DNA of 64,000 bases, from the NCBI RefSeq assembly GCF_900113605.1, contig NZ_FOPY01000005.1, positions 1 through 64,000 on the forward strand, read 5' to 3'. The DNA is from Modicisalibacter xianhensis. GTDB lineage: Bacteria; Pseudomonadota; Gammaproteobacteria; Pseudomonadales; Halomonadaceae. The position numbers were made by a program, and so were the translations under genes. The notes beneath the pieces are model-generated. The model had not been told where the DNA came from. It was given only the letters and a program-made list of their open reading frames with translations, and did not search any database. Below, piece by piece: positions 50,068 through 56,139 of this stretch (position 1 is its first letter; every line of letters starts with the position of its first letter).

Positions 50068-50808
50068 TCAGGCAAACCCGCCGTTGGCGCGAAGCACCTG
50101 TGCATTGACCCAGGCACCGTCCGGGCCGGCCAGGAAAGCCACCACCCCGGCGATATCTTCGGGCTGACCGAGGCGCTCCAGCGGCGGGAGTGCCGCCAAC
50201 TGCGCGACCTGGTCCTCAGACTTGCCGGCAAAGAACAGCTCCGTGGCCACCGGGCCGGGCGCCACGGCATTCACGGTGATCTGGCGTCCACGCAGTTCAT
50301 TGGCCAGCACGCGTACCAGCCCTTCCACACCGGCCTTGCTGGCGATATACGGGCCATAGCCGGGAAACGACTTGGCGATCACGCTGCTGGTTAGCGCGAT
50401 GATCCGCCCGCCCTCGCTCAGGTGCTGGGCAGCCTGCGCCATGACCAGGTAGGCCCCGCGCAGATTGGTCGCGATGGTCTTGTCGAAGAGGTCAAGGTTA
50501 TCGCTGGTGATGGTTGCCATGTGCAGTATACCGGCGCTGTTGACCACCACATCGATGCGTCCGAACGTCTCCAGCGTGGTCTGAAAGAGTCGTTCCACGT
50601 CCTGCGGGTCGGAGACGTCGCCCTGCACGGCAATCGCCCGGCCGCCGTTGGCCTCGATGGCGGTGACGGTCTCCTCAGCCTTGGCGATGTTGTCAGCATA
50701 GTTGACGGTCACGGCAAGGCCTTCCGCCGCCAGACGGAAGGCGATTTCCTGGCCGATGCCGCGCGAGGCGCCGGTGACTATGGCTACCCGCTGTGCTGCA
50801 TGTTCCAT
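50068..50808 (-). CDS. Short-chain dehydrogenase/reductase
   Basis: The 246-residue SDR has the cofactor motif VTGASRGIGQEIA, NSAGILHMAT, catalytic Ser in IIALTSSVIAKSF and the YIASK Tyr-Lys pair (PYIASKAGVEGLV), and ends with the substrate-lid region PGPVATELFF. The NYADN after strand two suggests NADP(H). The start has CAGGAGCGAGAC upstream. The likely oxidoreductase substrate is unknown. It shares a 162-base divergent region with a gene preceded by a Fur-like box. Confidence 0.9.
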   Translation of the reverse strand: MEHAAQRVAIVTGASRGIGQEIAFRLAAEGLAVTVNYADNIAKAEETVTAIEANGGRAIAVQGDVSDPQDVERLFQTTLETFGRIDVVVNSAGILHMATITSDNLDLFDKTIATNLRGAYLVMAQAAQHLSEGGRIIALTSSVIAKSFPGYGPYIASKAGVEGLVRVLANELRGRQITVNAVAPGPVATELFFAGKSEDQVAQLAALPPLERLGQPEDIAGVVAFLAGPDGAWVNAQVLRANGGFA

Positions 50809-50904
50809 GTCTCGCTCCTGTTTTTTGCTTGGTAGCCACCGCCCCACATGCCCTCGGTAGCGATTTCAGTACGCTGGTTCCCATCGCGACAGTGTAGGGC
50901 GTAT

Positions 50905-50949
50905 TTGACAGCAGCAGCCATACCAACAACAATGAGAATCAGTCTCGTT
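50905..50949 (+). promoter_or_regulatory. Sigma-70 promoter overlapped by a probable Fur box
   Basis: TTGACA at 50905-50910 and AACAAT at 50928-50933, 17 bases apart, form a good promoter. AATGAGAATCAGTCTCGTT at 50931-50949 matches a 9-1-9 Fur-type dyad with two mismatches between arms and covers the -10/+1 region, where repressor binding would block transcription. The downstream gene starts at 50971. Confidence 0.65.
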
Positions 50950-50970
50950 GATATTGGCTGTGATTTTCCC

Positions 50971-51372
50971 ATGACGGCAGAGCGCTCCCAGCTGTATTAC
51001 ACCTGTGTCTTTCTGCAGGTCTCCTTTCAGGCGATCAAGCGCTCCGTGGCGGATTCAGCCCAGGAAGACGACACGCCCTGCTGGCTGGATGCCGCGTTGC
51101 TGCGCATGTTATCCGGCGAGTTACAGCGCTGCCGCCGGGAAGCCGCGCCCTTCACGGAGGTCAGCGAGGCCCTGGATACCGCCATCTACCACTGCGGCCT
51201 GCTGATGGCGCAATGCCCCGCTGCCGTCAATCGACGGCTCTGTCAGCATCACCTCGAGGCGATCATGTCACCGCTCAAGCTCGCCTCGGACCGCTTGGCA
51301 GGCAATGCCGGCCGAGCCACGGCCAGCCCCGCCACCCCAGGCCAATGGCTGCGCAGTTGGTTGGGCTGGTAA
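50971..51372 (+). CDS. Hypothetical protein, probably iron-regulated
   Basis: The 133-residue protein begins MTAERSQLYYTCVFLQVSFQ and is helical, with several cysteines and histidines (DDTPCWLDAALLRM, AIYHCGLLMAQCPAAVNRRL, CQHHLEAIMSPL). No family is recognised. The longer frame starts within or before the promoter; the start at 50971 places the Fur-like box just upstream, so I prefer it, although no strong ribosome binding site is present. Iron-dependent repression is inferred from the box only. Confidence 0.6.
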   Translation: MTAERSQLYYTCVFLQVSFQAIKRSVADSAQEDDTPCWLDAALLRMLSGELQRCRREAAPFTEVSEALDTAIYHCGLLMAQCPAAVNRRLCQHHLEAIMSPLKLASDRLAGNAGRATASPATPGQWLRSWLGW

Positions 51373-51444
51373 CACCCGGGTTATTACAGCCCGATGTGAT
51401 CCTGCCTTCGGCATCACTAGGAAAATGAGGGCTGGCCCCCATTC

Positions 51445-51885
51445 TCAGCCAAAGCGCATGAACCACTCCGGCTCACCAGTATGGGTATCCTCGCTCTCGC
51501 CCACGATGACGAACCCATTCGCTTCATAGAAACGTACCGCCCCGACGTTCTTGCGATAGACATGCACCTCGAGCACGGGCCGCAGCGACTTGGCATGATC
51601 CAGCAGCGACCGGCCAATTCCCTGATTCTGGCTCATGGGCATCACGAACAGGGCGGCCAGCGTCGCCTCATGCAACGAGACGAACCCTTTTATGTCTCCT
51701 TCTTGCTCGTAGATATAGTTTTCGGCGGACGGCAAATAGGCTTCCTGCATGGCCGACCGTTGGGCATGCCAGAACGAATCGGGCACGAAATCATGGGCCT
51801 CGCATGAGGCCTCCAGCCAGAGGGAGGCCATGGCCGGTATATCGCGGGACGTGCCGCCCCGCACCCTGCATTGAAGCGTAGTCAT
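51445..51885 (-). CDS. GNAT-family N-acetyltransferase
   Basis: The 146-residue protein has the GNAT core FVSLHEATLAALFVMPMSQNQGIGRSLLDHAKSL, with the acetyl-CoA pyrophosphate loop QNQGIG, and the C-terminal YRKNVGAVRFYEANGFVIVGE. It resembles YjaB-type and PA-like small acetyltransferases. Substrate unknown. It is a single gene between the orphan Fur-linked gene and the sigma-54 regulator. Confidence 0.88.
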   Translation of the reverse strand: MTTLQCRVRGGTSRDIPAMASLWLEASCEAHDFVPDSFWHAQRSAMQEAYLPSAENYIYEQEGDIKGFVSLHEATLAALFVMPMSQNQGIGRSLLDHAKSLRPVLEVHVYRKNVGAVRFYEANGFVIVGESEDTHTGEPEWFMRFG

Positions 51886-52019: not shown

Positions 52020-53999
<1,980 letters not shown>

Positions 54000-54299: not shown

Positions 54300-54342
54300 C
54301 ATGGCAAGGACGTGTCACCCATGAACAATGCGGAGAACAACG

Positions 54343-56139
54343 ATGACGACACGCACGCCAACCCAGCAAGTCCAACACTGGCTGAACGATTTCGAGAGCG
54401 CACTGGAGCAACGCGACATCGAACGGGTCATGGGCCTGTTCAACGAGGAATGCTACTGGCGCGACCTGGTCGCCTTCACCTGGAATCTCAAGACCCTGGA
54501 GGGCAAGGACGACATCCAGTCGATGCTCAATGCCACGCTGGGCGAGACCCGCCCGTCGAACTGGCGGATCGACGGCGAGGCCACCGAGACCGATGACGTG
54601 ACCGAGGCCTGGTTCACCTTCGAGACCGGCGTGGCCCGTGGCAAGGGCTTTCTGCGCCTGAAGGACGGCACATGCTGGACACTGCTGACCACCATGCAGG
54701 AACTCAAGGACTATCCCGAGCCGCGCGGCCTGCATCGTCCCAAGGGCGCCGAGCACGGTGCCAACAAGTCACGCGAGACCTGGCTGGAGTCGCGCCAGCG
54801 CGAGGAGCGCGAACTCGGCTACAGCCGCCAGCCCTACTGCGTGATCATCGGCGGCGGCCAGGGCGGCATCGGGCTCGCCGCGCGCCTGCGCCAGCTCAAC
54901 GTGCCGACCATCGTGCTCGACAAGCACCCGCGCCCCGGCGATGCCTGGCGCAACCGCTACAAGTCGCTGTGCCTGCACGATCCGGTGTGGTACGACCACC
55001 TGCCCTACATTCCCTTCCCCGAGAACTGGCCGATTTTCGCGCCCAAGGACAAGGTCGGCGACTGGCTGGAGATGTACACCAAGGTCATGGAGCTCAACTA
55101 CTGGAGTTCCACCGAATGCGAGGATGCCAGCTTCGATGAGGCCAGCGGCGAGTGGACCGTGAACGTCAACCGCGGCGGCGAGCGAGTCACCCTCAGGCCC
55201 AAGCAGTTGATTCTGGCCACTGGCATGTCGGGCATGCCCAACGTGCCGCACTTCCCCGGGGCCGAGACCTTCGAGGGCGAGCAGCAACACTCCAGCCAGC
55301 ACCCGGGGCCGGATGCCTATCGCGGCAAGAAGGTGATCGTGGTGGGCGCCAATAACTCCGCCCACGACATCTGCGCGGCGCTGTGGGAAAACGACGCCGA
55401 CGTGACCATGCTGCAGCGCTCCTCCACGCACGTGGTGAAGTCCGACTCGCTGATGGAACACGCCCTCGGCCCGCTCTACTCCGAAGAAGCGGTGCAGAGT
55501 GGCATCACCCACGACAAGGCCGACCTGATCTTCGCCTCGATTCCCTACAAGCTGTTGCCCGACTTCCAGCGCCCCGCTTTCGACCAGATTCGCGAACGCG
55601 ACGCCGCGTTCTACAAGAAACTCGAGGACGCCGGTTTCATGCTCGACTTCGGCGACGACGACTCGGGGCTGTTTCTCAAGTACCTGCGCCGCGGCTCCGG
55701 CTACTACATCGACGTGGGTGCCTGCGACCTGGTCGCCAACGGCGAGATCAAGCTGCGCAGCGGGGTAGGCATCGAGCGCATCAACCCGCGCTCGGTGACG
55801 CTCACCGACGGCACCGAACTGCCCGCCGACCTGATCGTCTACGCCACCGGCTACGGCTCCATGAACGGCTGGGCGGCACGCATCATCTCGCAGGAGGTCG
55901 CCGACAAGGTCGGCAAATGCTGGGGACTGGGCTCCGACACCACCAAGGACCCGGGTCCGTGGGAAGGCGAACTGCGCAACATGTGGAAGCCCACCCAGCA
56001 GGAGGCGCTGTGGTTCCACGGCGGCAACCTGCACCAGTCACGCCACTATTCGCAGTACCTGGCGCTGCAGCTCAAGGCGCGCATGGAGGGCATCCCCACC
56101 CCCGTATACGGCCTGCAGGAAGTCCATCACCTGGCCTGA
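54343..56139 (+). CDS. Flavin-containing monooxygenase with N-terminal NTF2-like domain
   Basis: The 598-residue protein begins with an NTF2/SnoaL-like domain (about residues 5-125: WLNDFESALEQRDIERVMGLFNEECYWRDLVAF). An FAD/NADPH monooxygenase part follows: CVIIGGGQGGIGLAARL (FAD), FEGEQQHSSQHPG (FMO motif FxGxxxH), KVIVVGANNSAHDI (NADPH) and LIVYATGYGS. It is YUCCA/FMO-like rather than classical Baeyer-Villiger. The start has GGAGAACAACG upstream. It is the first gene of a sigma-54 controlled operon with a butanediol-dehydrogenase-type gene. The substrate is unknown. Confidence 0.88.
   Translation: MTTRTPTQQVQHWLNDFESALEQRDIERVMGLFNEECYWRDLVAFTWNLKTLEGKDDIQSMLNATLGETRPSNWRIDGEATETDDVTEAWFTFETGVARGKGFLRLKDGTCWTLLTTMQELKDYPEPRGLHRPKGAEHGANKSRETWLESRQREERELGYSRQPYCVIIGGGQGGIGLAARLRQLNVPTIVLDKHPRPGDAWRNRYKSLCLHDPVWYDHLPYIPFPENWPIFAPKDKVGDWLEMYTKVMELNYWSSTECEDASFDEASGEWTVNVNRGGERVTLRPKQLILATGMSGMPNVPHFPGAETFEGEQQHSSQHPGPDAYRGKKVIVVGANNSAHDICAALWENDADVTMLQRSSTHVVKSDSLMEHALGPLYSEEAVQSGITHDKADLIFASIPYKLLPDFQRPAFDQIRERDAAFYKKLEDAGFMLDFGDDDSGLFLKYLRRGSGYYIDVGACDLVANGEIKLRSGVGIERINPRSVTLTDGTELPADLIVYATGYGSMNGWAARIISQEVADKVGKCWGLGSDTTKDPGPWEGELRNMWKPTQQEALWFHGGNLHQSRHYSQYLALQLKARMEGIPTPVYGLQEVHHLA

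Follow-up and report, generated by a model that had tools for sequence, protein, structure and literature searches.

A putative Fur-repressed gene for a proposed four-helix accessory protein of iron starvation in the Halomonadaceae

In a stretch of 64,000 nucleotides of Modicisalibacter xianhensis (positions 1 to 64,000 of contig NZ_FOPY01000005.1, assembly GCF_900113605.1; hereafter, the window), positions 50,905 to 51,372 probably hold a Fur-repressed gene for an accessory four-helix protein of iron starvation. Judged from the sequence, the regulatory part of this reading (i.e., a single-gene Fur target) is very likely, while a general role of the protein in iron starvation is quite likely. 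The ORF (50971..51372, + strand) encodes 133 amino acids and belongs, according to the ORF call, the family alignment and the structural model, to an undescribed family of the Halomonadaceae, predicted to fold as a four-helix bundle. The likely iron-starvation response of the Halomonadaceae, among which Halomonas is promoted as an industrial chassis (PMC12164125), thereby gains a lineage-specific protein family that had not been described.

The promoter search over positions 50600–51600 returned a single sigma-70-like site, TTGACA-N17-AACAAT, on the + strand (10/12 matches), sites of that quality occurring 0.2 times on average in shuffled sequence. Its –35 hexamer TTGACA (50905..50910) and its –10 hexamer AACAAT (50928..50933), separated by a 17-nt spacer, correspond to the pair proposed in the initial annotation, which had also seen a Fur-like dyad over the promoter. 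The predicted Fur box (50928..50949, no strand assigned, 16.4 bits with the matrix described below) can be read in two registers. The dyad AATGAGAATCAGTCTCGTT (50931–50949) indeed overlaps the –10 hexamer, covers the expected transcription start and leaves 21 nt to the start codon of the ORF, while AACAATGAGAATCAGTCTC (50928–50946) lies in the register of the classical Fur-box consensus, GATAATGATAATCATTATC, with which it agrees at 14 of 19 positions, a score never attained when the 200 bp upstream were shuffled 200 times (mononucleotide shuffling). A genome search with this consensus GATAATGATAATCATTATC, allowing up to three mismatches, missed the window box at 50928–50946 and retrieved another site (C30:223748) inside a 601-aa ORF. 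Since 14/19 is good but not decisive, an independent Fur standard was sought. Two Fur-family proteins are encoded in the genome (PF01475 matches of 144.1 and 59.9 bits), and an Rfam search of the leader (50700–51500, E-value up to 1) found no RNA element.

The independent standard came from PrrF, a classical Fur-repressed small RNA. A dyad pattern was composed after the window box had been seen, so that the window match is there by design, which is not the case of the two other matches: at up to three mismatches, the pattern retrieved only the window site (two mismatches) and two tandem PrrF-like promoters (four rows for three places, the fourth row being the reverse of the window site), and a reversed control pattern gave zero matches in the same genome. 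The two non-window sites are 234 bp apart on another contig, in an intergenic stretch flanked by genes that, from their translations, we take to resemble trmB and an AEC transporter gene. On this stretch, Rfam recognised two tandem PrrF RNAs (RF00444; 75.1 and 58.6 bits, E-values of 8e-13 and 3e-9), both scores being lower than the RF00444 gathering score of 90. The corresponding PrrF-like genes, whose promoters each carry a Fur box, lie on the – strand at L131 7932–8079 (G000:C16:167931–168078) and L131 8153–8313 (G000:C16:168152–168312). PrrF-like RNAs were detected in 53 of 61 Halomonadaceae genomes, covering 22 of 24 genera, with every score below the cut-off, whereas 14 control genomes yielded no match; among the literature matches listed, where subscription journals are thinly covered, none dealt with PrrF in the Halomonadaceae.

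From 30 Halomonadaceae PrrF loci, we extracted 19 distinct boxes, which form the matrix. The window site reaches 16.4 bits, the best score in the 64 kb, the runner-up being at 8.0 (a gap of about 8 bits), and in 40 random control loci only 4 of 830,560 positions score at least 16.4 bits. Scoring the box with a Fur matrix, as the initial annotation had recommended, thus came out in its favour, and the PrrF-like RNAs, together with the family gene, give a usable Fur matrix for the Halomonadaceae. The Fur-repressed PrrF promoters and the window gene share the same box pattern at the promoter, within the same genome and the same bacterial family, whereas the product of PrrF is a non-coding RNA and that of the window gene a protein.

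The box is conserved upstream of the homologues. With the PrrF matrix, the 90 nt preceding the start codon lie above the 99% quantile of the random set (5.0 bits) in 62 of 62 regions, with a median of 15.3 bits, a set that includes the window and counts one locus twice (L019 = L081), related loci not being independent. Over 150 nt, the random 95% quantile is passed in all 62 regions and the 99% one in 61 (the exception is L056); as the best site is found 100–140 nt upstream in 10 of the 62 regions, where it may serve a divergent gene, the matrix test was repeated over the shorter distance. The –35 element follows the same trend, 58 of 62 homologues having TTGAC 50–110 nt 5' of their start codon vs. 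4.5% of random 65-nt stretches. Two comparisons, one of 12 sequences and one of 57 rows (5 of the 62 rows, devoid of a usable TTGAC segment, having been dropped), indicate that TTGAC and the box are kept while the spacer between them varies; in the latter, an AxAAT-type hexamer occurs at the same spacing in most rows of Modicisalibacter, Billgrantia and Salinicola. The predicted repression by iron, advanced in the initial annotation, is supported: the box passes both an independent matrix and the comparison of homologues. Altogether, the regulatory reading is well supported, because of the PrrF matrix score, the upstream conservation and the Fur-family proteins of the genome. Like many relatives, the window gene has no Shine-Dalgarno-like tetramer before its start codon (50940–50970). 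As a side observation, many Billgrantia and Halomonas leaders keep a sequence resembling TATGGTGCCC that is absent from the window.

ATG 50971 is the likely start of the ORF, because the family aligns at M1 (shared by 60 of 61 rows). A second in-frame ATG exists at 50932, within the –10/Fur box, and most relatives have no in-frame start so far upstream; a leader peptide beginning there was considered and dropped, because transcription is expected to begin 3' of this ATG, which falls in the –10 region. The window protein has no match in Pfam and NCBIfam at E-values up to 10, as the initial annotation had anticipated in speaking of no recognised family, while the 61 members give scattered weak matches to 13 Pfam families (E-value up to 1), the best being zf-DNL in two members (E-value of 0.0044). 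The best hit of a sequence search of the PDB has an E-value of 0.51. The protein is an orphan inasmuch as it belongs to no named family, but not in the sense of being alone: the gene is found in 115 of 201 Halomonadaceae genomes and 8 of 24 genera, in one copy each, with named relatives in Modicisalibacter, Billgrantia, Halomonas, Franzmannia and Salinicola, and the window protein is closest to those of Halomonas sp. McH1-25 (84%) and, next, Modicisalibacter coralii (80%). At the order level, a profile search identified it in 13 of 390 genomes, 12 of them Halomonadaceae, the only other match (G393) being a broken copy with three stops (E-value of 5e-4); at the class level, it was found in 2 of 369 genomes, both Halomonadaceae. 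No intact homologue was thus found outside the Halomonadaceae in the 390 order-level and 369 class-level genomes sampled, a figure in which distant relatives may be missed, since the first pass of the profile searches scores the best candidates only. Among the literature matches listed, none concerned this gene or the Halomonas Fur regulon, which is weak evidence, as subscription journals are thinly covered; iron in Chromohalobacter is treated in PMC6104435, where a previous study of iron in the genus is cited.

Across 61 aligned sequences, the invariant residues are L15, S18, F19, C37, W38, D40, L47, E50, A71, L78, C82, P83, C91 and L102, and two further cysteines are near-invariant (≥90%), C54 in 55 rows and C75 in 58. 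Histidines are less well kept (H74 in 47, H93 in 40 and H94 in 50 of the 61 rows), all three being replaced in the ten g11 rows, save H94 of L068. This weakens the case for a Cys/His metal site: in the label “Cys/His” given in the initial annotation, the cysteines stand (C37, C82 and C91), while the histidines do not. An AlphaFold2 model built from 35 sequences (pLDDT 84.8, pTM 0.76) has four main helices, at residues 2–27, 41–57, 62–81 and 88–109, followed by a low-confidence tail; from the order of the helices, C37, C75, C82 and C91 should lie toward one end of the predicted bundle. Searched with this model, Foldseek returned many helical bundles, none outstanding (best E-value of 0.088), and a second structural aligner (VIA) placed a designed helical protein first, with a Z of 13.3 (rmsd 2.3 over 104 residues), though a failure of either to reveal a family proves nothing. 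For a modelled helical bundle, such a Z may reflect merely a common helix arrangement. The PDB up-down four-helix bundles resemble the predicted fold of the window protein, the top match being the designed protein and the rest unrelated helical proteins. A metal or redox function of the cysteine cluster is the most attractive reading of the activity of the protein, but a tentative one, which we regard as possible rather than probable; if the cluster binds metal, this would be a new small iron-handling protein.

Regarding the genomic context, we looked for 14 marker proteins of the siderophore, TonB/ExbB, SodA and ribonucleotide reductase (RNR) systems, chosen from the neighbours themselves, around 55 family loci (5 of which are shortened by contig ends) and in 40 random 10.4-kb stretches taken from 40 gene-carrying genomes, on the same contig and with centres more than 20 kb away. 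The Pfam names of the marker representatives were FecCD, Peripla_BP_2, FhuF, TonB receptor, FecR, sigma-70, IucA/IucC, Lys/Orn monooxygenase, Sod_Fe, NrdI, RNR subunits and MotA_ExbB. At least one marker lies within 5 kb in 25 of 55 family loci vs. 2 of 40 controls (Fisher p of 8e-6), the siderophore/TonB receptor set accounting for 20/55 vs. 2/40 (p of 4e-4), the SodA set for 12/55 vs. 0/40 (p of 1e-3), the RNR set for 5/55 vs. 0/40 and the ExbB set for 4/55 vs. 0/40; these p-values are too small, because related loci are not independent and the neighbours themselves supplied the markers. The superoxide dismutase loci, with a Fe/Mn enzyme gene at up to 5 kb, are L035, L041, L043–L049 and L079–L081, and the RNR loci, with nrdI at up to 5 kb and hence assigned to class Ib, are L053, L054, L063, L075 and L079.

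This enrichment in siderophore, SodA and class Ib RNR neighbours agrees with the role in iron stress proposed in the initial annotation, and the siderophore genes that it had advised looking for near homologues are indeed there in part of the loci. In contrast, 30 of 55 loci have no marker within 5 kb, including the window, its four nearest relatives (L031–L034), 9/9 Salinicola loci and 10/10 g11 loci, so that the tie to iron genes is frequent, not universal. An ABC ATPase gene is nearby in 20/55 loci vs. 5/40 controls, and in 13 of the 34 named loci it immediately follows the family gene in the same orientation; it was excluded from the marker count because it is unspecific, its Pfam match being only ABC_tran, but from its neighbours we take the downstream gene to encode the ATPase of a siderophore importer. 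Judged from these sequences, the family gene occurs in varied iron-starvation loci and elsewhere, keeping its own Fur-type box.

According to this reading, Fur-Fe(II) would sit on the box when iron is sufficient, thereby blocking RNA polymerase, and would leave it when iron falls, such that the protein would be made. The product, which has no evident signal peptide, would most likely be a cytosolic accessory factor of iron starvation, in which C37, C82 and C91 (along with C75) could hold a metal, a Fe-S cluster or a redox pair. It would probably handle or spare iron during the import of siderophore-bound iron, while manganese enzymes replace iron ones, a role suggested because, in relatives, the gene often precedes an ABC ATPase gene within a siderophore cluster or has SodA, NrdEF-NrdI or ExbB genes for neighbours. 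A more specific proposal, rather doubtful at this stage, is that this Fur-controlled four-helix protein with its cysteine cluster senses or carries iron or a Fe-S cluster, linking siderophore import to the switch to manganese enzymes (SodA, class Ib RNR). If true, it would represent a new kind of iron-sparing factor in the Halomonadaceae, alongside PrrF.

Other explanations can be confronted with the same data. At face value, the box might be a chance palindrome and the gene not controlled by iron, as would be compatible with its mere 14/19 agreement with the classical consensus and its escape from the search at up to three mismatches; yet the site is the best in 64 kb, its pattern is common to the PrrF promoters, and a similar site lies upstream of every homologue examined, which makes chance a far-fetched explanation. 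About as improbable is the idea that the protein is the Halomonadaceae version of FagA or OrfX from the fagA-fumC-orfX-sodA operon. In Pseudomonas, the small Fur-controlled gene fagA precedes fumC, orfX and sodA (PMC3377617 and PMC3224232), and the products FagA (PA4471) and OrfX (PA4469) are likewise small (about 130–150 residues), uncharacterised and Fur-controlled proteins encoded near a SodA gene. The common size, the Fur control and the fact that 12 of 55 loci have a SodA-like gene in the vicinity speak for such a relationship, while the motifs differ (PWHWR.LCLD vs. PCWLD and QCP), the genome's own fumC has no such gene beside it, and the neighbours in the window are SDR and GNAT genes. 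FagA and OrfX sit in the fumC operon, whereas the window gene does not, and the sequences are unrelated. Using as references three loci with the fagA-fumC-orfX-sodA order, from genomes taken as Pseudomonadaceae by their OprF scores, homology was rejected for both FagA (hhalign probability of 0.1%, E-value of 0.74, three sequences) and OrfX (PA4469-like; 0.1%, 0.71, two sequences). The Halomonadaceae family may work in the same setting as FagA, while its sequence indicates that it is not a member of the FagA family. Besides, the Pseudomonas-like operons also have small Fur-controlled genes ahead of a related superoxide dismutase gene, whose product is about 69% identical.

The two remaining alternatives accept the Fur control and differ from our preferred reading in the partner of the protein. 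It could be a cytosolic protein dedicated to a siderophore ABC importer, e.g., for iron release beside an FhuF-type reductase, given that the gene is directly 5' of the ABC ATPase gene in the 13 named loci mentioned above, several of which also have a divergent FecCD permease gene, often with FhuF behind. FhuF-type ferric-siderophore reductases are themselves cytosolic iron-starvation proteins with conserved cysteines, and neighbours of the family gene in several loci. But the window, Salinicola and g11 loci have no such genes nearby, other loci have NrdEF-NrdI or ExbB neighbours instead, and G014, G023 and G071 carry the family gene without a PF06276 match, FhuF thus not being an obligate partner; a dedicated importer partner is therefore an unlikely description of the family. 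Co-occurrence with FhuF, which is found in 172 of 201 genomes, is not discriminating. Nor is the protein recognised as an FhuF, PF06276 matching neither the window protein (E-value up to 10) nor the 61 members (E-value up to 1); it has 133 residues vs. 263 for the FhuF of L044, and presumably lacks the paired-Cys motif of FhuF_C.

Finally, the protein might be an adaptor of the PrrF iron-sparing response, by analogy with Bacillus subtilis, in which the Fbp proteins, small and under Fur control, are presumed to assist the small RNA FsrA. The gene and the PrrF-like RNAs do carry the same box, at the only sites of the pattern in the genome, and the C-terminal tail of the model is of low confidence. 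Against this, PrrF-like RNAs exist in genomes of the bacterial family that do not have the gene (e.g., G001, G005 and G006), and the four g11 genomes covered by the PrrF search (G010, G033, G047 and G058) as well as G039 have the gene with no PrrF match, though weak matches can be lost. Moreover, nothing in sequence or fold ties the protein to RNA-binding proteins (Pfam, PDB, Foldseek), so that an adaptor of this kind appears very improbable. The reading that we prefer thus remains that of a general accessory protein of iron starvation.

As for the immediate neighbours in the window, the divergent gene for an SDR oxidoreductase (50068..50808, – strand; Pfam adh_short_C2, E-value of 9e-60) begins with a start codon at 50808, leaving 97 bp to the –35 hexamer, which is the distance given in the initial annotation. 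The shared control that had been envisaged there finds no support: no promoter-like site was found on the SDR strand between 50600 and 51600, and an adjacent upstream SDR gene of the same cluster occurs in 0 of 54 other loci, which places the SDR gene outside the conserved unit. The convergent gene for a GNAT acetyltransferase (51445..51885, – strand; Pfam Acetyltransf_7, E-value of 1e-10) is a neighbour only. Among the homologous loci, L043 has two Fur-like boxes, at about –109 and –42 from the start codon, toward a divergent FecCD permease gene, and there the family gene and the permease unit may each have their own box. Farther along the window, positions 52020–53999 and 54328–56139 presumably encode, from their translations, a sigma-54-type activator and a divergent flavin monooxygenase-like protein, and L032 and L034 keep these two genes together, close to the family gene.
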